64,000 nt of DNA from NCBI RefSeq assembly GCF_035917675.1, contig NZ_CP109104.1, positions 930,001 through 994,000 on the forward strand, read 5' to 3'. Position numbers and translations under genes: made by a program. The stretch comes from Streptomyces sp. NBC_01775. GTDB lineage: Bacteria; Actinomycetota; Actinomycetes; Streptomycetales; Streptomycetaceae. The notes beneath the pieces are model-generated. The model saw only the letters and a program-made list of their open reading frames with translations. It did not search any database and was not told the DNA's origin. Positions 54,035 to 64,000 of the stretch are shown here, piece by piece; positions within the stretch are counted from its first letter, which is position 1; each line of letters starts with the position of its first letter.

Positions 54035-54754
54035 CTAGCCGCTCCTCGTCAGGGGGAAGGAGGCCCTGTTGAGGACGTCCGCCCAGTGCCGGATACCGGG
54101 CTTCTGTTTCGAGGGGCCGCTGATACTCAGCGCGCCGACGACACGGCCCTCGTGGCCCAGCGCCGTGGCCAGGGAGTCCCAGCCGTCGGCGCTGTGGTGG
54201 ACGAGGCCGGAGCGCCGCACGCTGGTGACGTTCTCCAGCGGCGTCCCCCGGCCGGGCGCCGGAAAGGCGCGGTGGCCGAGGCGGTGCAGCGCCGCCAGGA
54301 GCACGCGGCCCGCCGCTGTCCTGGTCGGCTCCCGATGGGCCAGGATGCCGACGGCGGGAGTGCGTTGTTCCGGTGCGCAGACCATGTCCACGAGTTCGCA
54401 CCGCAACCGGGCGGCGGACAGCAGGCGCGGCAGGTGCAGTGCCGCGACGTGTCCGCCCGCCTCGTCCCGCACGCTCAACAGCAGGTCCCTGCCCGGGGAG
54501 CCGGACAGCTTGTCCGCGCCGCCTGCCGGGACGCCGCCGTCCCCGGCCGTCCGGGCGGCCACGGTCAGTTCGTACCTGCCGTATCCGGCGCGGTGGACCA
54601 GTCCGTGCGCCTCGGCCTGGGCCAGGAGTTTGTTGGTCTGGGAGGCGCCGAGGCCCGCGCGTTCGGCGATCACACCGAGGCGGTGGATGCCCGGACTCTC
54701 CCGCTCCAGTGCCGACATGGCCGCGAGCAAGGCGAACCCCCGCTCCGCGCTCAT
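54035..54754 (-). CDS. IclR family regulator
   Basis: 239 residues. The HTH part reads RGFALLAAMSALERESPGIHRLGVIAERAGLGASQTNKLL (in sequence from residue 5), then HRAGYGRYELT. The effector domain has TAAGRVLLAALHRLG and VVGALSISGP, typical of IclR, though the family's usual DQ and GYA motifs are weak. It is on the same strand as the SDR gene and may control it. Confidence 0.75.
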   Translation of the reverse strand: MSAERGFALLAAMSALERESPGIHRLGVIAERAGLGASQTNKLLAQAEAHGLVHRAGYGRYELTVAARTAGDGGVPAGGADKLSGSPGRDLLLSVRDEAGGHVAALHLPRLLSAARLRCELVDMVCAPEQRTPAVGILAHREPTRTAAGRVLLAALHRLGHRAFPAPGRGTPLENVTSVRRSGLVHHSADGWDSLATALGHEGRVVGALSISGPSKQKPGIRHWADVLNRASFPLTRSG

Positions 54755-55196
54755 GAGCGGGACCCGTCGCGCTGTACGCCGTTGTGCCGGGTGGAGTGCC
54801 GGGTGAGGTGCCCTGTGGGGTACCGGAAGTCGCGCCCCGTGGGGTGGCCGGGGCCGGGTGCGAGCTTGTGACCCGCACGGTCGGTGCCGCGACGTGCTGC
54901 CTGCCGTTTCGTCATCGGTAAACACCTTTGGTCGTCGACAGGGACGAAGCCTCTCACGACGACTCCGGGTGTCCGCGAGGACTTTGCACATTCGCGCCAT
55001 GACCAACTTGACGCCCGCCAACTTGACGCCCGCCACAGAAATGTCCACCTTTCACTTTTCCGTGCGCGGAAAAGTCCCGCCATCCGGGGTGACGCCCCCT
55101 TGCGCGGGCGGCGGGGGTGTCGGAGGGTGACCAATCGACGGCAAAACCGTGCACACCGAAGTCCCAGTTTCCGGGTAATCCACGGGGAAGGCGGAC
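54755..55196. other. Intergenic region with a palindrome, 15-bp repeats and a doubtful small ORF
   Basis: A minus-strand ORF (54751-54915, 54 codons, MTKRQAARRG...) ends by overlapping the IclR start as ATGA; its repeated RH/TGH content suggests DNA repeats more than a protein. At 55000-55035 CAACTTGACGCCCGC occurs twice in tandem. ACTTTTCCG (55064-55072) pairs with 55077-55085 around TGCG, an operator- or terminator-like hairpin. Confidence 0.4.
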
Positions 55197-56640
55197 ATGC
55201 GAGTTTCTCTTGTTTCCGTGCCATGGCAGCTGCTCGCCACGCCTTCCCTTCCGCTCGGCGCTCTCAAGGCCCGGACCCGCGCATGCCGCAATCACCACGA
55301 GATCCGGACGCGCCACGCGAACCCGCACCGTCCCGAATATCTACGGGAAGCCAGCGGCGGTCCCCTCGCCCCGGAGTGCTTCGACTACTTGGCCAATACC
55401 GGGGTGTGGCACGGCATGGGCGACCGGGTGTTCACCCCGGCGCTCCACGGAGCCGGGAACCGGCGCCGGGAGCATTACCGGAGTTACCCGGCCGAGCACG
55501 GTGTGGACCCCGGCGAGCCCGAGGGCACGGCCACCCGTGCCGTCCGCTTCATCTCCGCGCCGGCCCGGGAGACCGTGGCCGCCGGGCCCGGGGTCATCGG
55601 CTTCAGCAGCACCTTCCAGCAGAACGTGCCCTCCCGCGCGGCGGCCAGGTCCGTCGAGGGACCGGCGCCCGGCACGCCCGCGCTCTTCGGCGGCGGCTGC
55701 TGCGAGGCGCCGGTGGGCCCGGCCATCGCGCGGAACTTCCCGTTCGTCGGCCACGTCATCAGCGGCGAGGCCCGGCGCTCTTATGTGGAATTCCTCGGAC
55801 ATCTCGAGGGACTGCGCGCCGTGGAAGAGGTCGGGAGGATTTCCTGGACGGCGGAGGAAGGCAGCACGGTGACGAACGCCTTCGGCGCCCCGTCGGCAAT
55901 GGGCGAGATTCCCTGCCCCGAGTTCGACACCTGTTTCCAGAAACTCGAAGAAAGGCCGCTCAGGCCGTCCGTGAAACCGACCCCGTTCTACGAGGCGGCC
56001 TTTGGCTGCTGGTGGGGTGAAAAACACACCTGCCCGTTCTGCGGCCTCTACGGGTTGACAATGAAGTTCCGCTCCCGTCCTCCGGAACGGGTCAGGACGC
56101 GCCTGGGGGACCTGGTGCGGCGCCATCAGATCCCCGACATCGTCACCGTTGACAACATTCTCGACATGGAGTATTCGAAGACGCTCCTGCCGGAACTCGC
56201 GGGCGCCGACATGGACCTGAATCCCTATTGCGAGATCTCTCGCGACCGGGTCCTCGCGCCCGGTGCCGACGGCACCGGCACCGGCACCGGCGCCCGCACC
56301 CGCACCCGCACCCGCACCCGCACCCGCACAGGCGCCCATACCCGCGCCCCCGGCCCCGGCCGCGCCCGCCGACGCCGGGCCGGTCTGCTTCAGCGGCGGC
56401 CCTCACCGACCCCAGACCCTTGCGCTCGTCCGCGCCCTGCGGGAGCACACCGCGCGGGCCGAGCACCTCACTTGGCGGGCCCGCCTGGGGAGCCGGGCCA
56501 CGCTCGCGGCATGGCGGGCGCACTTCAGGCCCGGCCTCCCGCACTGCCGGCGCGGCCCCGGCTTCGTCCTCGTCCTCGTCCTCGTTCATGACGCCCGGCC
56601 CGCGGCTTCTCCGGCGGGGACCGAAACCCCGGCCGGATGA
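55197..56640 (+). pseudogene. RiPP maturation radical SAM protein 1-like gene, truncated after residue ~345
   Basis: The first 345 residues follow the B12-binding radical SAM enzymes of RiPP clusters: N-terminal LVSVPW, GFSSTFQQNVPS, LFGGGCCEAPVG, NFPFVGHVISGE, then the cluster motif C271-x7-C279-x2-C282 (GCWWGEKHTCPFCGLYG) and DIVTVDNILDM. After DLNPYCEIS the barrel stops and the frame runs into TGTGTG and RTRTRT repeats. A second frame (to 56640) may hold a piece of the C-terminus (ALVRALREHTARAEHL...CRRGPGFV) with an LVLVLV repeat. Family members are about 600-700 residues, so half the barrel is missing. GGGGAAGGCGG precedes the ATG, so a truncated protein could still be made. Confidence 0.7.
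56292..56330. repeat. Hexanucleotide repeat (CCCGCA)n inside the radical SAM gene
   Basis: About six CCCGCA units follow several GGCACC units (from 56270). A similar TCCTCG run lies at 56563-56585. Both are where the protein similarity disappears, which fits slippage and decay. Confidence 0.75.
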
Positions 56641-56803
56641 AGGGAACTCCCCGCATCCCGCTCCCCATCGAGGTGCCGGGCCACGGCTGAGCCCTCGGTA
56701 CACCCGGCCGCACCGCCCGCCGGCGCCTGCCCCCGAACTCGTCGTCGGAGCGCCCTGCACGGCTCCACGACGGCCCCCGACCCCTCGCAGAGAGGAGAAC
56801 GCC

Positions 56804-56821
56804 ATGCGTTACATCCACTGA
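56804..56821 (+). CDS. bytA: Biarylitide-type pentapeptide precursor, MRYIH
   Basis: ATG CGT TAC ATC CAC TGA: five codons and a stop. AGGAG (56793-56797) is six bases upstream, an ideal ribosome binding site that has no other gene to serve. The biarylitide class of RiPPs is defined by precursors of the form MRYxH (MRYYH and MRYLH are known) with a P450 gene just downstream that joins the Tyr and His side chains; here a P450 starts 168 bases later. The central residue is Ile. The leader would be Met-Arg and the core Tyr-Ile-His. Far below the length that gene finders report, so it will be missing from standard annotation. Confidence 0.85.
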   Translation: MRYIH

Positions 56822-56833
56822 TGCGTTGGCTGT

Positions 56834-56863
56834 CGCGGCCACGCCCACGCGGGCGTGGCCGCG
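56834..56863 (+). terminator. 13-bp hairpin between precursor and P450 genes
   Basis: CGCGGCCACGCCC (56834-56846) pairs perfectly with 56851-56863 around the loop ACGC, starting 12 bases after the precursor stop. No T-run follows. It probably acts as an attenuator or mRNA-stabilising element that makes the precursor message more abundant than the downstream one. Confidence 0.65.
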
Positions 56864-56875
56864 GCACAGGCTCCG

Positions 56876-56907
56876 CACGTGCGCACCACGTGCGAGTCCC
56901 ACGTGCG
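56876..56907 (+). repeat. Three CACGTGCG direct repeats in the P450 leader
   Basis: CACGTGCG occurs at 56876-56883, 56887-56894 and 56900-56907, spaced 11 and 13 bases. CACGTG is itself palindromic, so this may be a regulator site for a secondary promoter of the P450 gene. Confidence 0.5.
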
Positions 56908-56989
56908 AATCCCCCGAGCTACCTCCTGGGGCGATCTCCAAGGCAGTCCCCAGAGCGATTCCCTGGGGCACGAGGCAGAGAGGCTGGTC

Positions 56990-58285
56990 ATGACGGGAGC
57001 GACGCAGACACCGCGGGACCCGCTCTACGACCCGTTGGCTCCGGCGGTCATCGCTGCCCCGCACCCCTACTACCGGCGACTCCGGCAGCACAAGAGGGTC
57101 TACTGGCACGCGCAGCTGGACTCCTGGGTGCTGACCGGATACGCGGAGTGCCGTCAGGTCCTCGGCGACACGACCGCCTTCGGCTCGGACTTCCGCCGGG
57201 TCGGCGAGGACATCCCCGAGGCCCAGCTGAGCGTGCAGTCCCTCGACCCGCCCGAGCACGGCGCGATCCGGCATCTGCTGGTCTCCGCGCTGCACGCCCG
57301 CTCCCCCGCGTCCATGGCGGAGGCGACGGCGAGGCTCGCGGAGCGGCAGGTGGCCGGACTACGGGACAGCGGCCATCCCGTCGACCTCGTCAGCGAGTTC
57401 GCCCGGCCTCTCGCGCTGCGCACGATGTGCGGATTCCTCGGCGTGGAACCGCCCGACGGGCCCTGGTTCGAGGAGATGTCCAACGCGATCGTCCGCAGCA
57501 TGGACGCCGGGCTGGACCCCGCACGCGCCGAGCCCGGCACCAAGGCCAGGGGCGAGCTGAGCCGGATGGTCGGCGACTGGCTGGAAACGGCCGGTGGCGA
57601 CGGCTTCCTGGGCGCGGCGCGTGCGGCCCGCGACAGCACGGCACCCGCGGCCGACCGCGGGAGCACGCCGCGCGCGGCCGGCGAGGGCACGCCCGGCGTG
57701 CCCGAGACCGTGCTGGCGAACTCGCTGCGCGCGGTGCTGCACGCGGGCTACGAGTCGGTCAGCCGCCTGCTGGGCAACGCGCTGGCCCGCCTGGTGGCCG
57801 AGCCCGCGCTGCTGGCCCCCGTCGGCGGCGGCGCCCCGTCGAAGGGTGGCGCCCCACCGGAGGCGCTGGACGCGCTGGTCGACGAGCTGCTGCGGCTGGA
57901 GGGCCCCGTGCAGGCGGACGCCCGGGTCTGCGTCAGCGACACCGACGTCGGGGAGGAGCGCGTACGGCGCGGCGAGGTCGTCGTACTGATGCTGGGGGCC
58001 GCCAACCGCGACCCGGAGGTGTTCGCCGCCCCCGACACCGTCGGCCTCAACCGGCGCCGGGGCGTCCACCTGGCCTTCGGGCGGGGCGCCCACGCCTGTC
58101 TGGGCGCCGCCTTCGCCACCTTGCAACTGCGCGCCGTGCTGAGCGCGCTCGGCGACGCGGGCCTCGTCCTCACCGCCCGGGGGCCCGCGGTGTACGAACC
58201 GACAGCCACCCTGCGCGGGCTGCGGTCCCTGCCCGTGTCCGTCAGCGCTCCGGCGGCGAGGCCGCACGCGCACCGCACCGCGTGA
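56990..58285 (+). CDS. bytO: Cytochrome P450, probable biarylitide cross-linking enzyme
   Basis: 431 residues from ATG 56990. All core motifs are present: I-helix AGYES (252-256, with Ser where Thr is usual), ELLR (Glu299, Arg302) and heme motif FGRGAHACLG (Cys370). The opening DPLYDPLAP...PHPYYRRLRQH and YWHAQLDSWVLTGY fits the P450s beside MRYxH genes. A low-complexity insertion (about 210-235) lies before the I-helix. It would couple Tyr3 and His5 of the MRYIH peptide through an aryl bond. Its stop overlaps a GTG of the peptidase gene, so the two are co-translated. Confidence 0.85.
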   Translation: MTGATQTPRDPLYDPLAPAVIAAPHPYYRRLRQHKRVYWHAQLDSWVLTGYAECRQVLGDTTAFGSDFRRVGEDIPEAQLSVQSLDPPEHGAIRHLLVSALHARSPASMAEATARLAERQVAGLRDSGHPVDLVSEFARPLALRTMCGFLGVEPPDGPWFEEMSNAIVRSMDAGLDPARAEPGTKARGELSRMVGDWLETAGGDGFLGAARAARDSTAPAADRGSTPRAAGEGTPGVPETVLANSLRAVLHAGYESVSRLLGNALARLVAEPALLAPVGGGAPSKGGAPPEALDALVDELLRLEGPVQADARVCVSDTDVGEERVRRGEVVVLMLGAANRDPEVFAAPDTVGLNRRRGVHLAFGRGAHACLGAAFATLQLRAVLSALGDAGLVLTARGPAVYEPTATLRGLRSLPVSVSAPAARPHAHRTA

Positions 58286-58299
58286 AGGGAACACTCCCC

Positions 58300-59805
58300 G
58301 TGTCCACAGCCCTTGCCCGGCGCGCGCTGATCGGCGTGGCCGCCTTGCTGCTGACCTGTCTGGCGTGGCAGCCGTCCGCCGCGGCCCCTCCGCCGGACGC
58401 CCCGCCCGCAGGCCCCGCGTCCTCCTCCGGCAGCCCCGCGTCCTCCTCCTCACCGGGGCTCGCCGAGCGGCTGGAGTCCGGGGTGACGGGGCCCAAGGTC
58501 GCCCGGCATCTGCGGGCCTTGCAGGACATCGCCGATGCCGAGGGCGGCAACCGGGGCTACGCGCGCCCCGGGTTCACCCGCTCGGCGGCCTACGTCAGCG
58601 GGCAGCTCACCGACGCCGGATACAAGGTCACCCGGCAGTCCGTCCCGTACACCGACTTCGATGTACGGAAGGAAGACCTGTCGGTTCAGGCGGGCGGCGG
58701 CAACCGGAAGGTGCGGGCGCTGATGACGCGCTTCACGCCGTCGACAGCCAAGGAGGGCATCGACGCGCGGGCGGTGTCGCTGCCCGAGGGGCGGACCGGC
58801 TGCCAGGTCTCCGACTACGACGGGGTTCCGGTGAAGGGCGCCGTGGTCGTGCTCGCGCGCAACGCCTGCGGTTTCGGCCACCAGCAGAAGACGGCCGCCG
58901 AAGCGGGCGCCGTCGCCGTGCTCCTCTCCTATCCGACGCCCTCGCCCCGCAACATCTACCGGCTCATCGGCATGCCGGCCTCGGACTTCGTCCTCCCCAT
59001 GGCCTCGGTCTCCCAGGAGGACGGGGAGCGGCTGGCACGCGAGGCGGCGCACGGCGACGCACGGGTCCACCTCACCCTGCGGGCGCGCGACATCGAGCGG
59101 ACGACGGTGAATCTCATCGCCGAGACCCGTGGCGGCGACCCGGACGACGTGGTGCTGATGGGCGGCCACCTCGACAGCGTGCCCGAGAGCCCCGGCATCA
59201 ACGACAACGGTTCGACGGCGGCGACCGTCCTCCAGACCGCCCTCGAACTCGCGCCCCACCAAGGCGCGGTACGCAACAAGGTCCGCTTCATGTGGTGGGG
59301 CGCCGAGGAACTCGTCAACATCGGCTCCAGCTACTACGTCGACCGGCTCTCCGAGCCGGAGCGGCAACGGATCGCGGCCGTCATCAACGGCGAGCTGCTC
59401 GCCCCCTCCAACCACGCCCGCTTCGTCTGGGATCCGGGCTCCGGCGGCGGCCACGCGCTCGCCGGGCTGTTCACCGGGTACTTCGACCGGCACCAACTCC
59501 CCTACGACATCCAGGACCCGAGCGCCATCGGCTCCGATCATCTGGCGTTCGAGGCGGTAGGCATTCCGACCGGCGGCATCGACGGCGGCAACCTCGGCGT
59601 GAAGACACCGGAACAGCAGGCCCGTTACGGGGGCCACTCCGGGCAGATGTTCGATCCTTGCTATCACCAGACGTGTGACCGGCTCGACCGCATCGACCGC
59701 CGGGTGCTCGGCCAGAACGCGCCCGCCCTCGCCTGGGTCGTCGGCCATCTGGCCACGGACGATTCCGCCGTACGGTCCGTCCGGCAGCCCTCGGGGAGGA
59801 GGTGA
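58300..59805 (+). CDS. Secreted M28 family aminopeptidase
   Basis: 501 residues from GTG 58300, nine bases after GAAGGGA; GTG 58282 is also possible. A signal peptide ends near Ala29 (PSAAAP), a PA insert spans about 155-265, and zinc ligands are His290 (GGHLDS), Asp302 (INDNGS), Glu336-Glu337 (WGAEE) and His456 (CYHQTCD). The usual Asp ligand is Glu365 (NGELLAPSN). The family, which includes the S. griseus aminopeptidase, removes N-terminal residues outside the cell. Coupled to the P450 gene, it is a good candidate for removing Met-Arg from the cross-linked MRYIH peptide. Confidence 0.87.
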   Translation: MSTALARRALIGVAALLLTCLAWQPSAAAPPPDAPPAGPASSSGSPASSSSPGLAERLESGVTGPKVARHLRALQDIADAEGGNRGYARPGFTRSAAYVSGQLTDAGYKVTRQSVPYTDFDVRKEDLSVQAGGGNRKVRALMTRFTPSTAKEGIDARAVSLPEGRTGCQVSDYDGVPVKGAVVVLARNACGFGHQQKTAAEAGAVAVLLSYPTPSPRNIYRLIGMPASDFVLPMASVSQEDGERLAREAAHGDARVHLTLRARDIERTTVNLIAETRGGDPDDVVLMGGHLDSVPESPGINDNGSTAATVLQTALELAPHQGAVRNKVRFMWWGAEELVNIGSSYYVDRLSEPERQRIAAVINGELLAPSNHARFVWDPGSGGGHALAGLFTGYFDRHQLPYDIQDPSAIGSDHLAFEAVGIPTGGIDGGNLGVKTPEQQARYGGHSGQMFDPCYHQTCDRLDRIDRRVLGQNAPALAWVVGHLATDDSAVRSVRQPSGRR

Positions 59806-59899
59806 GCGCCGATCTCAAGGACTCCGGACTCACGCCGCCGCCCGCCCTCGACGACCGGCGGATCGGCGGTGAACACCCGCTCGCAGCCAGGAGAGACGC

Positions 59900-60991
59900 A
59901 TGCCCCGCGCACTCACGGACGCTCTGGACACGTCCACGCGACACGCACCGGACCCGCACGCCCACCCGGCGGCCGTGCGGCTCGCTCCCGTCTTCGACGC
60001 CGAACGGCTGCGCGCCGAACTTGAGATCCTCACCGGTGACAGCTGGCGGCGGCAGCGGGCCTACTCCGAGGCGGGGGCGAGCGACGAACACCCCGCCGAC
60101 TGGCGGGTCCTGGCGCTGCGCAGCCCCGGCGGGGACCCCGCGCGTACGGACGCCGGAGGCCCCGGCCCGCTCCCCTACCGCGACACCCCCTGGCTGGAGC
60201 GCGCCCCGTACTTCGCGGAGATCCTCGCCTCGCTGCCGCCCGGGCTGCGGGCGGCGCGGCTGATGTCGCTGGGGGTGGGCGCTTCGGTCGAAACGCACCG
60301 GGACACGCCGCTGGGCTTCACCAAGGGCACGGTGCGGCTGCACATCCCCGTGACGACCAACGAGGGCGCGGTGCTCGTCCTGGACGGGGAGGCCTGCCGG
60401 TGGCAGCCGGGCACCTTCTGGTACGGCGACTTCTCGCGCCCGCACTCCGTCGCCAACCACGGCGAGTACGCGCGGGTGCACCTCGTTCTCGACCACGCGG
60501 TGAGCCCCGCGCTGTTCGGCCTCTTCCCGCCCGGCTTCGCCGAAGAGGTCGGCCTGGCGAACGTCCTGTTCGAGCGGCCGGAGGTCCCGCTGGGGCCCGT
60601 CGAGCGGGCCACCTTCGCCTGCGGGTTCACGGTGCCGGCCGACTTCCGGCACTGGTGGGGCGAGGCGCTGGACGAGACGGCCGACGGGCCGGGCGACACC
60701 GAGGCAGCTGTCGTGCCCCGGCCTGACGGCCTCTTCCTGACCGAGGCCGAGGCCGAGGCGGACGTCGGGGAAGGGGACGTCGGGGAAGGGGACGTCGGGG
60801 AAGGGGACGGGGGCAGGCGCGACGGGCCGGGCATCGGGCTGGTCCATGTCGGCGGCGGGGAGTTCCGGCTCCAGGGGTGGACGCAGGAGCGGACCCTCCA
60901 CCTGGACCGCGCGGCACGCACCGTCCGCTTCACCGTCCGCGACGGGTCCTCCCGCCGCACCTGCGAGCATCCGATGACGCCGAAGGTGTGA
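59900..60991 (+). CDS. Aspartyl/asparaginyl beta-hydroxylase-type Fe(II)/2-oxoglutarate oxygenase
   Basis: 363 residues, ATG 59900 behind AGGAGAG. Iron ligands H133-x-D135 in VETHRDT and His182 in RPHSVANHG, with Arg192 in EYARVHLVLD for 2-oxoglutarate, match the AspH domain (about 95-200). The C-terminal 120 residues are of unknown type and include three copies of DVGEG from an exact 15-bp tandem repeat (60761-60805). It follows the peptidase by 94 bases on the same strand and may hydroxylate the peptide product, which is inference from position. The gene after it is convergent. Confidence 0.83.
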   Translation: MPRALTDALDTSTRHAPDPHAHPAAVRLAPVFDAERLRAELEILTGDSWRRQRAYSEAGASDEHPADWRVLALRSPGGDPARTDAGGPGPLPYRDTPWLERAPYFAEILASLPPGLRAARLMSLGVGASVETHRDTPLGFTKGTVRLHIPVTTNEGAVLVLDGEACRWQPGTFWYGDFSRPHSVANHGEYARVHLVLDHAVSPALFGLFPPGFAEEVGLANVLFERPEVPLGPVERATFACGFTVPADFRHWWGEALDETADGPGDTEAAVVPRPDGLFLTEAEAEADVGEGDVGEGDVGEGDGGRRDGPGIGLVHVGGGEFRLQGWTQERTLHLDRAARTVRFTVRDGSSRRTCEHPMTPKV

Positions 60992-61039: not shown

Positions 61040-61591
61040 TCACTCTCTTCGCGCGGGCCCCAGCGGAGCGGCCTCGCGGAAGCCGCCCTCGTGGTGGACC
61101 AGGCCGGTCGGGCCGCCCTCGCCACCGCTGTCCTCCACCTCGCCGACGACGAGCAGATGGTCGCCGATCTCCCTCAGCAGCGTGGTGCGCGCGGTGAGCC
61201 AGAGCGGCGCCGCGTCGAGGAGCGGCAGCCCGCCTGGCCCCGGCGTCCACGGCACACCCGCGAACCTGTCGACGCGGCTGCGCGCGAACTGTTCCGCCAG
61301 GGCCTCGTTCCCCGGCCCCAGCACATGGACCGCGAAGCGCTCGGCCGCGCGTACCGCCCGCACGGTGGAGGCGGAGAGGCCCAAATAGAAGGAGACGAGC
61401 GCCGGTTCGAGCGACACGGAGGTGAAGGAGGTCGCCGTGAAACCGGCGGGCCCGGGGACGGTGATGACGGTGACCCCGGCAGCGTGCTGGCGCAGGGCGC
61501 GGCGCAGCGTCCCCGCCGGGTCGGCGGCGGAGCTCTGCGGTTTCGCGGCATACGCCGACGGGTGGGCCGTGTGGTGGGTGGAGACGCTCAC
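61040..61591 (-). CDS. Flavin reductase family protein
   Basis: 183 residues from GTG 61591 (overlaps the upstream stop as GTGA). HAAGVTVITVPGPAGFTATSFTSVSLEP (FMN-binding split barrel), LSASTVRAV and RFAGVPWTPGPGGLPLLDAAPLWL identify the family; the C-terminus has VGEVE and LVHHEGGF. It would supply FMNH2 to the luciferase-like monooxygenase two genes upstream in the same operon. Confidence 0.87.
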   Translation of the reverse strand: MSVSTHHTAHPSAYAAKPQSSAADPAGTLRRALRQHAAGVTVITVPGPAGFTATSFTSVSLEPALVSFYLGLSASTVRAVRAAERFAVHVLGPGNEALAEQFARSRVDRFAGVPWTPGPGGLPLLDAAPLWLTARTTLLREIGDHLLVVGEVEDSGGEGGPTGLVHHEGGFREAAPLGPARRE

Positions 61592-62481
61592 GCCTTCCCC
61601 TCTCGTGTTCCGGTCGGCGCGGTCGGTCCGGTCGGTCCGGTCGGTCCGGTCGGTCCGGTCTCGACGGTCAGTACCGGCGGGGCCGACGGCCCGCCCCGCA
61701 GGCGTTCGAGCCACAGCACGAGGGTGGCCGCCGTGCTGCGGTGCGACGCGTCGTTGAGGACGTCGTGCCGGCCCTCGCGCAGCACGCCCAGCGTGGCCAG
61801 CGGCAGCCGTGCGGCCAGGGCGCGGGCCTGGGTGAGGGGTGTGACGGGGTCGGCCGCGCCGTGCAGCACCAGCACGGGCAGCGCGGTGTGCGCCTCGCCG
61901 CGCAGCCGGTCGGGTACGGGGGTGTTGAGGGCGCCCCGCTCGAAGGAGGCATCGGCCGTCAGCCGGGCCCGGTGGGTCGGGCAGGCGGAACGGGCGTCGA
62001 GTTCGCTCTCCCAGGCGGCCTCGGCCCCGCTCCCTCCGCCGTCCGTTCCGGCCGCAGGGGCGTCGGCCGAAGCCGGTCCGTCCCCCGGCGCGGCTCCGGC
62101 CGCCGGCGCGGCTCCGGCGACGACCACACCTGCGAGGGGCAGTCCGGGCAGGGCCGGAACAGCCGCCGTGTGCAGGGCCTGGAGCGCGCCCGTGTCGCTG
62201 CCGACGAGGACCAGCGGCGCGGCCGGTTCGTCACCGGTGGCCGGCCGGATCACGGCCGCCGCCTCTTCGGGACCCGCGTCGGGCGGGAGCTCCAGCGCGT
62301 GCACCACATAGCCGTCGGCGGCCAGCCGCCGCCCGAAGCGCTCGTAGACGCCGGGGTGTTCGCCCCGGCCGGGCAGCACGAGCAGCGTGCCGCGCGGTGC
62401 GACGGCGGGCGGCGGGTACCAGGCGGTGGCCTCCTGCTCGGGTACGGGTACGGGTACGGGTGCGAGTGCGGGCTCTGTCAT
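61588..62481 (-). CDS. Alpha/beta hydrolase-like protein with Asp at the nucleophile position
   Basis: 297 residues, coupled to both neighbours by 4-base overlaps. LLVLPGRGEHPGVYERFGRRLAADGY fits the N-terminal hydrolase strand/helix, LHGAADPVTP the acid loop, and LREGRHDVLND the His loop. The nucleophile elbow reads VGSDTGAL: Asp stands where Ser is expected, as in haloalkane dehalogenases and epoxide hydrolases. Residues 128-150 are an Ala/Gly-rich insertion and the tail has five GPT repeats from a 9-bp DNA repeat (61613-61655). Role unknown. Confidence 0.75.
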   Translation of the reverse strand: MTEPALAPVPVPVPEQEATAWYPPPAVAPRGTLLVLPGRGEHPGVYERFGRRLAADGYVVHALELPPDAGPEEAAAVIRPATGDEPAAPLVLVGSDTGALQALHTAAVPALPGLPLAGVVVAGAAPAAGAAPGDGPASADAPAAGTDGGGSGAEAAWESELDARSACPTHRARLTADASFERGALNTPVPDRLRGEAHTALPVLVLHGAADPVTPLTQARALAARLPLATLGVLREGRHDVLNDASHRSTAATLVLWLERLRGGPSAPPVLTVETGPTGPTGPTGPTAPTGTREGKA

Positions 62482-63629
62482 CGGGCGCTCCCAGCGGTGA
62501 CGGAGGCGGAGGCCGTGGCCGTGGCGCGGTGGGCGAGTTCCTGGCGTACGAGGGGCAGCAGGTGCCTGCCGTAGTCGACGGCGTCGTCCAGCGGGTCGTA
62601 TCCGCGGATCAGCAAGGTGGTGACGCCGATGTCGACGTAGTCGAGCAGGGCGCGGGCGACGGTCTCCGGGGTGCCCACCAGCGCGGTGGTGTTGCCGCCC
62701 GCGCCGCTGGCGGTCGCCGTGGGGGTCCACAGGGCCCGGTCGTGCAGGTCCTTGCGGGCGGCGGCGGCCAGCAGCCGCTGGGACCCGGCGTTCTGCGGGC
62801 CGGCGTCGGAGGCTCCGACCCGCTGCTGGCGGACCTGGTCGAAGAAGGGGCTTCCCACTCCGGACTGGATGGTCTCCAGGATGCGGTGCGCCCGCTCCCA
62901 CGCGGCGTCCTCGGTCGGGCCGAGGATGGGCCGGAAGGAGACGCTGATGCGCGGCGGTGTGGACCGCCCGGCCGCTTCGGCCGCCGCCCGTACGGCGGCG
63001 ATCTGTTCGGCGGTCTCGGCCAGCGGCTCGCCCCACAGGGCGAAGACGTCGGCGTGTGCGCCGCCCACCCGGTATGCGGCCTCGGAGGAGCCGCCGAAGT
63101 ACAGCGGTATCCCGCTCTCCCGGTGGGGCAGCACGGCGGGGGCGTAGTCCTCGAAGCGGTAGTGCGCACCGGAGTGGCTGAAGGGCTCGGTGCTGCTCCA
63201 GGCGCGGCGCAGGATGCCGAGGTATTCGTCGGTGCGCTCGTAGCGCTCGTCCTTGCCGAGATAGTCGCCGTCGCGGCGCTGTTCGGTGTCGTTGCCGCCG
63301 CTGATGGTGTGGACGGCGACGCGGCCCTCGGTGAACTGGTCGAGGGTCGCGAAGGTCCGCGCGGCCAGGGTGGGTGCGACGAATCCGGGGCGGTGGGCGA
63401 CGAGCAGCCCGAGCCGTTCGGTGCGGGCCGCCACGTGCGCGGCGACCTGGGTGCCGTCGGGGCGGCCCGAGCTGTATCCGATGAGGACCCGGTCGAAGCC
63501 CGCGTCCTCGTGCGCGCGGGCGAACCGGACGGTGTACGCGGGGTCGATCAGCGGGCCTTGGCCGGGCCGGGTCTCGGAGGAGTCCTGGGTGCCGATCATG
63601 CCGATGAACTCGATGTCGGGCGGGGTCAT
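62478..63629 (-). CDS. LLM-class FMN-dependent monooxygenase (alkanesulfonate type)
   Basis: 383 residues. FDRVLIGYSSGRPDG, TERLGLLVAHRPGFV, ARTFATLDQFTEGRVAVHTISG and IPLYFGGSSEAAYRVGGAHADVFALWGEP are the SsuD/alkanesulfonate monooxygenase pattern; GTPETVARALLDYVDIGVTTLLIRGYDPL closes the barrel. It needs FMNH2, which the flavin reductase of the operon can supply. With an acyl-CoA-dehydrogenase-like neighbour (DszC/SfnB type), use of an organosulfur compound is likely. Confidence 0.9.
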   Translation of the reverse strand: MTPPDIEFIGMIGTQDSSETRPGQGPLIDPAYTVRFARAHEDAGFDRVLIGYSSGRPDGTQVAAHVAARTERLGLLVAHRPGFVAPTLAARTFATLDQFTEGRVAVHTISGGNDTEQRRDGDYLGKDERYERTDEYLGILRRAWSSTEPFSHSGAHYRFEDYAPAVLPHRESGIPLYFGGSSEAAYRVGGAHADVFALWGEPLAETAEQIAAVRAAAEAAGRSTPPRISVSFRPILGPTEDAAWERAHRILETIQSGVGSPFFDQVRQQRVGASDAGPQNAGSQRLLAAAARKDLHDRALWTPTATASGAGGNTTALVGTPETVARALLDYVDIGVTTLLIRGYDPLDDAVDYGRHLLPLVRQELAHRATATASASVTAGSAR

Positions 63630-63693
63630 GGGCGCGTGCCTCTCTGTCTGGATCTGTCTGGGCTGTGGGCCGGTGGGGCTCTGCGGGGTGGGA

Positions 63694-64000
63694 TCAGGCC
63701 GGCGCGGGGCCGGGCGCCGCGCGGTCGAGGGCCCGGCGGCCCGCATCCGCGAGGGCCGCGTCGTCCTGCGGGGTGTGGACGCGGGAGCAGAGCACGTCGC
63801 GGTAGTGGCGTTGCAGCGGATTGGCGCGGGTCAGCCCGTGGTTGCCGGTGAGGGTGAGGGCCTGCTCCACGGCGGAGACGGCGGCGCGGGTGCCCAGGAC
63901 CTTGGCGGTTCCGGCATGTGCCGCGGCCTCCTCGGCGGCGGCGCCGCCCGTGTCGAGGCGGGCGGCGAGCGCTTCCACCAGGGTCCGGGCGCCGGTCAGC
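63694..64000 (-). CDS. Acyl-CoA dehydrogenase family protein, C-terminal part (cut by window edge)
   Basis: About 102 residues are visible; the frame is open to the window end. The order AAHAGTAKVLGTRAAVSAVEQALTLTGNHGLTRANPLQRHYRDVLCSRVHTPQDD (seen in pieces) is the end of acyl-CoA dehydrogenase-like flavin monooxygenases such as DszC and SfnB. It is 64 bases upstream of the monooxygenase gene, in the same direction, so probably in one operon. Confidence 0.85.
   Translation of the reverse strand, partial: LTGARTLVEALAARLDTGGAAAEEAAAHAGTAKVLGTRAAVSAVEQALTLTGNHGLTRANPLQRHYRDVLCSRVHTPQDDAALADAGRRALDRAAPGPAPA

Follow-up and report, generated by a model that had tools for sequence, protein, structure and literature searches.

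A probable P450Blt-type biarylitide cluster around a five-codon MRYIH gene in Streptomyces sp. NBC_01775, with a conserved M28 peptidase and a broken radical-SAM/DUF5825 pair

A pentapeptide gene, a P450 and two further enzymes

In this study, we analysed a window of 64,000 nucleotides from Streptomyces sp. NBC_01775 (contig NZ_CP109104.1, positions 930,001 to 994,000 of the forward strand), in which a five-codon gene for MRYIH stands before genes for a cytochrome P450, an M28 peptidase and an AspH-type oxygenase. The locus is probably a biarylitide cluster of the P450Blt type, whose ribosomally synthesised and post-translationally modified peptide (RiPP) would be cross-linked, hydroxylated and trimmed. 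This reading rests on the P450, which is 63% identical to that of Micromonospora sp. MW-13 and falls with it in one clade of 20 members, and on a pentapeptide gene beside the P450 in 19/19 clade relatives. A first-pass annotation had already named the locus a biarylitide-type RiPP cluster, and the P450 clade and the pentapeptide conservation support that name. It had also described the known clusters as minimal, which no longer holds, since a mining paper of 2026 gives 277 clusters with varied tailoring enzymes (PMC13417212). The combination of MRYIH and AspH adds a member to a known class; the reduced radical-SAM (S-adenosylmethionine) branch sets it apart as a variant within that class, and its main use lies in this C-methylation branch and in the peptidase, whose role can be tested. 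The genes of the cluster, with positions counted in the window, are as follows.

56793..56797, + strand: AGGAG, ribosome-binding site for MRYIH, read in the sequence
56804..56821, + strand: bytA-type precursor gene, five codons and a stop, MRYIH (ATGCGTTACATCCACTGA), read in the sequence
56990..58285, + strand: bytO-type cytochrome P450, predicted Tyr3-His5 cross-linker (PF00067)
58300..59805, + strand: secreted M28 aminopeptidase with a PA domain, predicted to remove Met-Arg (PF04389, 131.8 bits; PF02225)
59900..60991, + strand: AspH-type 2-oxoglutarate/Fe oxygenase, which is predicted to hydroxylate the cross-linked peptide (PF05118, Asp_Arg_Hydrox)

The three enzyme genes lie downstream of the MRYIH gene in its orientation, spaced by 168, 14 and 94 bases, and domain matches confirmed the row of P450, secreted aminopeptidase and AspH-type oxygenase that had been described. 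The interval first given to the cluster, 56804..60991, has the right end, but its start omits a related gene remnant at 55197-56690.

Relatives were found with the window P450 as query. With one genome taken per species, a scan gave 56 distinct loci; broader searches took in 391 and 394 genomes from the order and the class and 350, 298 and 297 from three other families, in sets that partly overlap. After flanks had been fetched, 117 related loci (L numbers below) were tabulated. An M28 or AspH-type gene was counted where tblastn gave more than 60 bits, and the stretches compared varied in length. Rows dropped before counting were L274 (the same as L060), L119, L120, L123 and L124 (the same as L032, L034, L036 and L037) and L126 (the genome of the window itself); no flanks were fetched for the MKYWH-group P450 loci from the relatives and order searches. 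Across the 117 loci we counted a pentapeptide in 93, an M28 gene in 29, an AspH-type gene in 38 and a radical-SAM C-methyltransferase in 6. The corresponding numbers among the 19 clade relatives were 19, 15, 2 and 3.

The pentapeptide gene is conserved beside the P450

Direct reading confirmed the five-codon frame that had been reported at 56804-56821. Its codons are ATG CGT TAC ATC CAC TGA (MRYIH), and the start lies six bases past AGGAG. The pattern ATGCGNTAYNNNCAYTRR had one match in the 64-kb window and none in 100 shuffles. A looser pattern, ATGMRNTAYNNNCAYTRR, matched once in the 9.34 Mb genome, and its backward-read control pattern likewise matched once. The motif by itself is therefore weak evidence; position and conservation, not the motif alone, carry the case for the predicted MRYIH gene.

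Mean major-base frequency across the 20 clade members was 0.93 within the 18-base gene, and in the flanks it was 0.43 (-60 to -21), 0.64 (-20 to -1) and 0.49 (60 bases past the stop). The same 18 bases as in the window were found in L122, L040, L215, L033 and L034. The gene in the 19 clade relatives has the form MxYx(H/Y), with a GTG start in one of them, L216. It had been set beforehand that lack of MRYxH codons beside orthologues of the P450 would speak against the reading; in L032-L068, where P450 identity is at least 43%, an MxYx(H/Y) gene with a word resembling a ribosome-binding site was kept in 37/37 loci. It lies upstream of the P450 in 13 of these and downstream in 24, of which 21 encode MKYWH, a group that has been published (PMC13417212). 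Among all related loci with P450 identity of at least 43%, the pentapeptide was found in 45/46. No precursor was recognised in 24/117 loci by the scan, which demands aromatic residues at positions 3 and 5 and a ribosome-binding-site-like word, so that these features are present partly by construction. The same scan gave 0/19 for distant control P450 loci (L069-L087) and 3 matches in 2340 shuffled stretches of 3.7 kb. A chance occurrence of the MRYIH codons beside an unrelated P450, for which the equal counts of the loose pattern and its control could be cited, was rejected on the contrast between 19/19 and these controls and on the weaker conservation of the flanks; we give it practically no weight.

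An Ile core was present in 9/117 related loci (MRYIH in 8, MRYIY in 1) and is not rare, although it had been thought possibly undescribed. MRYIH was absent from the papers searched, including the main text of PMC13417212; the supplementary table of 277 clusters of that paper, which lay outside the search, may list it.

Other precursors in the clade of the window were MRYIY (L121), MRYFY (L037), MSYRH (L125) and VRYLH (L216). Streptomyces palmae (L039) has three consecutive MRYLH genes 130-278 bases upstream of its P450, each with a ribosome-binding-site-like word. L261, L263 and L265, from a different P450 clade, have MDYPH precursors; an M28 gene is close by in each, and in 2/3 it lies on the opposite strand.

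The P450 matches P450Blt at all but one of the active-site residues checked

The best solved-structure matches of the P450 were 8u3n (E 4.5e-152) and 8u2m (E 1.3e-151), and 8U2M is P450Blt together with its peptide (PMC12186263). The P450 tree took in 101/118 rows; the 17 omitted were mostly MKYWH rows, and also L049. As grouping away from biarylitide P450s had likewise been set beforehand as a point against the reading, we examined the position of the window P450, which lies in the clade with the P450Blt strain at an SH-aLRT (Shimodaira-Hasegawa-like approximate likelihood ratio test) value of 100.

We took the MW-13 locus L043 as P450Blt by its strain name and by eight residues quoted for the enzyme, at 74, 84, 169, 231, 234, 238, 239 and 287 (PMC12186263, PMC10929621), which fit when the MW-13 sequence is numbered from His234: Val74, Gln84, Val169, Ala231, His234, Glu238, Ser239 and Val287. 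The window P450 equals MW-13 at residues 69, 84, 169, 231, 234, 238, 239 and 287 and has Glu, not Val, at position 74, which sits near the Arg-2 pocket. The link made by P450Blt is a C-N bond between Tyr and His (PMC12951456). Since the other active-site residues checked are as in P450Blt, a C-N Tyr-His link is the first guess here, and the neighbouring P450 very probably cross-links MRYIH. In NMR, the two kinds of link differ in the shift of Tyr C6, which is 125-130 ppm for C-N and 108-115 ppm for C-C (PMC13417212).

L255 (MRYYH) and L270 (MRYVH) have Gln231, Val234 and Ser238 in the P450, and their precursors resemble those of published C-C cross-linkers. MW-13 itself encodes another BytO-like P450 at L219 (G773:C11:17000-32000), where an MRYWH gene lies downstream and an AspH-type gene is also present.

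The M28 peptidase is a candidate for leader removal

Methionine aminopeptidase is inactive before Arg, so another enzyme must remove Met-Arg from the peptide. In 15/19 clade relatives, an M28 gene follows bytO on the same strand. The MW-13 locus is one of these; there, 27 bases separate the two reading frames, and the M28 protein is 64% identical to that of the window. The peptidase had at first been regarded as an extra, but it is usual in the clade and not peculiar to the strain. A restriction of peptidase and oxygenase to the window strain was rejected, as both are present at loci of relatives. Six residues (H, D, E, E, D, H), the metal-binding and catalytic ones of the family, are invariant in 30/30 cluster M28 copies, and a hydrophobic N-terminal stretch typical of exported proteins was present in the 15 relatives inspected. 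The genome's two best M28 paralogs show 36-38% identity and pair with each other outside the cluster copies. Sequence relatives with solved structures are keratinase KP1 and aminopeptidase 1cp7. A paper of February 2026 describes the characterised biarylitides as being without a dedicated in-cluster protease and suggests that the peptidase may be encoded elsewhere (PMC12951456); the word "peptidase" occurs 0 times in the main text of PMC13417212. These results suggest that the M28 enzyme is a good candidate, and the best one here, for the removal of Met-Arg.

The AspH-type oxygenase has intact ligand residues

The residues H, D, H and R, the iron ligands and the 2-oxoglutarate-binding Arg of the family, are invariant in 39/39 cluster AspH copies and conserved in at least 90% of 48 wider relatives. 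The structure model of the protein has a predicted local distance difference test score (pLDDT) of 88, and its nearest folds are 7v4m, 4p7x and AspH. A cluster with a dedicated oxygenase had been considered perhaps undescribed; however, the aspartyl/asparaginyl beta-hydroxylase gene savH has been described beside MRYVH (PMC13417212). In Phytohabitans flavus NBRC 107702 (L040, about 14522 onwards), the AspH frame matches over 188 residues only, and a full-length AspH-type protein of 337 residues (P0005) from P. flavus is present in another record.

A broken radical-SAM/DUF5825 pair precedes the MRYIH gene

The stretch before the pentapeptide gene, which the first-pass annotation had overlooked, holds the remains of a radical-SAM C-methyltransferase that the cluster has lost and of DUF5825 (together 55197-56690). 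These remains, and a weaker one further downstream, are listed below.

55197..56246, + strand: remnant of a B12 radical-SAM C-methyltransferase, TIGR03975, profile positions 1-345 of 606 (209.8 bits, cut-off 281.85)
56270..56330, no strand: short C/G-rich repeat that separates the two remnant pieces, read in the sequence
56413..56690, + strand: DUF5825 remnant, with a tail ending in IEVPGHG and a stop at 56690 (tblastn with the L122 DUF5825 protein, E 4e-8)
59802..59899, + strand: possible last 35 or so codons of a lost SAM methyltransferase, a weak match (15/38 identities, uncorrected local tblastn E 0.001)

The DUF5825 piece at 56413-56607 is in a frame other than that of the radical-SAM piece, and its tail ends 113 bases before MRYIH. 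The radical-SAM remnant, which lacks the remainder of its domain, shows 59% identity to its intact counterparts in L038 and L122; its branch has a length of 0.69, against 0.10-0.14 in the nearest relatives. A second TIGR03975 match at E <= 0.001 was sought in the genome, and none was found besides the remnant. A working radical-SAM enzyme in the window was rejected on these grounds, namely the truncation, the out-of-frame DUF5825 piece, the long branch and the lack of a second match.

Fuller relatives exist. In L122, a genome from the same genus, the row is complete, with radical-SAM, DUF5825, MRYIH, P450, M28, SAM methyltransferase and AspH in this order and intact; the weak methyltransferase tail in the window sits where L122 has its SAM methyltransferase. 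P. flavus (L040) has the set of L122, with the radical-SAM pair after the P450 and the AspH frame interrupted in the record, and in Streptacidiphilus fuscans (L038) the pair stands ahead of MRYVH. L038 and L040 match TIGR03975 and PF19142. The pair is also carried by L238, L243 and L250 of another family, whose radical-SAM proteins are 51-54% identical to that of L122 and which each have a DUF5825 match. The precursors of the loci with the pair are MRYIH, MRYVH and MRYRH, and none was found for L250. In clavusporins, this pair C-methylates amino acids (PMC12257519). In L147 (G772, Micromonospora rubida), a TIGR03975 gene groups with its counterpart in the P. flavus cluster, and no pentapeptide match was found in 4.8 kb.

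Because the pair is broken in the window and intact in L122, the window cluster looks reduced. The sister group of the window in the P450 tree consists of seven loci; none has a radical-SAM or AspH match, and M28 is present in six. We searched these seven for radical-SAM, methyltransferase and AspH remnants at the expected places and found none at E 0.05, so gene loss there is inferred from the tree. When changes were counted by parsimony on this tree, M28 required 7, AspH 18 and radical-SAM 6; the genes for AspH and radical-SAM thus come and go, and they may have been gained repeatedly. Stepwise loss from a richer cluster would be the simplest story for the window.

Proposed pathway and points that weigh against it

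On the favoured reading, a biarylitide cluster of the P450Blt type, MRYIH would be translated whole, as the ribosome-binding site and the conservation suggest. The P450 would then join Tyr3 to His5, most likely by a C-N bond as P450Blt does, given the identity of the active sites. The AspH-type oxygenase may act in the cytoplasm as a hydroxylase of the cross-linked peptide. For its target, the first candidate is Tyr3, since it is the sole core residue common to the clusters that have both AspH and a recognised precursor. After export, the secreted M28 enzyme would take off Met and next Arg and would halt at Tyr, since the ring ties up this residue. Cyclisation itself would then set the end point, and an exopeptidase stopping at the ring-bound Tyr would leave exactly a tripeptide. 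In an earlier state, the strain also had C-methylation by the B12 radical-SAM/DUF5825 pair, now a remnant in the sequence, and perhaps another methyltransferase. The calculated m/z values of the cross-linked (-2 H) products of MRYIH are 717.350 for the pentapeptide, 430.209 for the tripeptide and 472.219 for the N-acetyl tripeptide, with +15.995 partners of the last two at 446.203 and 488.214.

A wider proposal, which we hold tentatively and lean slightly against, concerns the P450Blt clade as a whole. It may include a full pathway made up of C-methylation of the pentapeptide by the radical-SAM/DUF5825 pair, the P450 cross-link, AspH hydroxylation, export and a ring-stopped M28 step. The window would be an intermediate of reduction, with C-methylation lost and hydroxylation kept, and its sisters would have come down to the pentapeptide, the P450 and, in 6/7, the peptidase.

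Several observations weigh against the proposed pathway. Its chemistry is a prediction from the genes. No M28 match was present in the stretch read for 4/19 clade relatives (L037, L038, L060 and L217) and for 88/117 loci, and the cluster M28 copy of L238, on a long branch, groups outside the other cluster copies. The distances of P450 and M28 correlate (r 0.92, n 30; 0.94 within the clade, n 16; 0/5000 permutations each), which plain common descent could also yield. Streptomyces coelicolor with the sav genes made the trimmed product YVH, with no peptidase gene named in the account given in PMC13417212, so other, generic peptidases can trim; in the same account, co-expression of savH led to no detectable difference in the product. 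By our calculation, the m/z of 458 published for YVH fits an N-acetyl form (458.203). A secreted peptidase needs an exported peptide, and no exporter was found among the nine neighbouring proteins scanned, a scan that did not include a search aimed at exporters.

Alternative explanations

The M28 enzyme may be a self-protection protein or a copy of the target, that is, an insensitive aminopeptidase, and not a maturation enzyme. OF4949, a biaryl tripeptide, is named as an aminopeptidase B inhibitor in the title of a cited reference; with the cluster copy counted, M28 matches number 11 in the genome, so targets exist; and the four clade members without M28 keep the P450. However, biarylitides need removal of Met-X, a step to which PMC12951456 assigns no in-cluster enzyme in the characterised biarylitides, the catalytic residues are intact in 30/30, and the published YVH was inactive in the assays tried (PMC13417212). 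We consider self-protection unlikely. Still less likely is that the whole cluster is decaying and makes nothing, with the radical-SAM loss as the first sign. The broken pair and the missing methyltransferase of L122 are consistent with decay, but the other four genes are intact, with their catalytic residues checked, and the seven sister loci without the radical-SAM pair retain bytA and bytO, as well as M28 in six.

A further possibility is that the P450 nitrates Tyr3 in the manner of RufO and that the aminopeptidase releases nitrotyrosine, as RufB does in rufomycin. The two systems share a pentapeptide and a P450 of one kind and an aminopeptidase that acts afterwards, and the P450 and RufB act together in rufomycin biosynthesis (PMC12186263). 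In contrast to RufO, which nitrates and has the discriminating residues Asp169 and Val240, the window P450 has Val169 and Ser239, as does P450Blt, and on these residues nitration was rejected. RufO is 41.6% identical to P450Blt (PMC12186263), against the 63% of the window P450 to MW-13, and no nitric oxide synthase match was found among the nine neighbouring proteins scanned. Nitration is accordingly very improbable, and Tyr-His cross-linking by the P450 remains the reading that we prefer.

Comparison with known systems

The P450Blt cluster of Micromonospora sp. MW-13 (MRYLH) resembles the window in its upstream pentapeptide gene, its P450 and the M28 gene that comes next. It differs in its Leu core, where the window has Ile, and in having no AspH-type or radical-SAM match in 17 kb, whereas the window has AspH and a radical-SAM remnant. 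The sav cluster of Saccharothrix variisporea (MRYVH) shares the pentapeptide, a P450 and the AspH-type savH; unlike the window, it has a C-C cross-linking P450 and an amidinotransferase, and no peptidase is named for it in the main text of PMC13417212. We found no amidinotransferase among the nine neighbouring proteins scanned. L270, whose AspH is 39% identical to that of the window, resembles the sav cluster and is probably of its type. In myxarylin and biarylitide-like clusters of the Streptomyces sp. TM32 type, a pentapeptide, a P450 and, in some, an adjacent protease gene occur as here, but that protease is a prolyl oligopeptidase, a serine enzyme, while the protease of the window is a secreted M28 aminopeptidase (PMC12951456). 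The radical-SAM/DUF5825 pair of the biarylitide relatives matches the clavusporin-type pair (PMC12257519), with the difference that the precursor here has five residues and a two-residue leader, and that the pair is broken in the window.

Neighbouring genes

54035..54769, - strand: IclR-like regulator (HTH_IclR, 21.7 bits, slightly below the cut-off of 22)

The IclR-like gene is a conserved neighbour in the Streptomyces sub-clade, where a relative of it lies 515-690 bases before the P450 in L032-L037, L121 and L125. On the - strand at 61040-63746, genes for a flavin reductase, an alpha/beta hydrolase and a luciferase-like monooxygenase stand in a row and look like an ordinary, separate operon. 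Defence-system models gave no match for the window P450 or the oxygenase.

Significance for biarylitide biosynthesis

The loss of the leader from biarylitides had been an open question, and the conserved M28 gene makes this step directly testable. One purified enzyme, together with a peptide that others already use, would suffice for such a test. C-methylated biarylitides are predicted from the radical-SAM/DUF5825 pair beside the intact relatives. In our judgement, a five-residue peptide would be an unusually small substrate for this class of radical-SAM C-methyltransferase, and C-methylated biarylitides would matter for the enzymatic making of constrained tripeptides.

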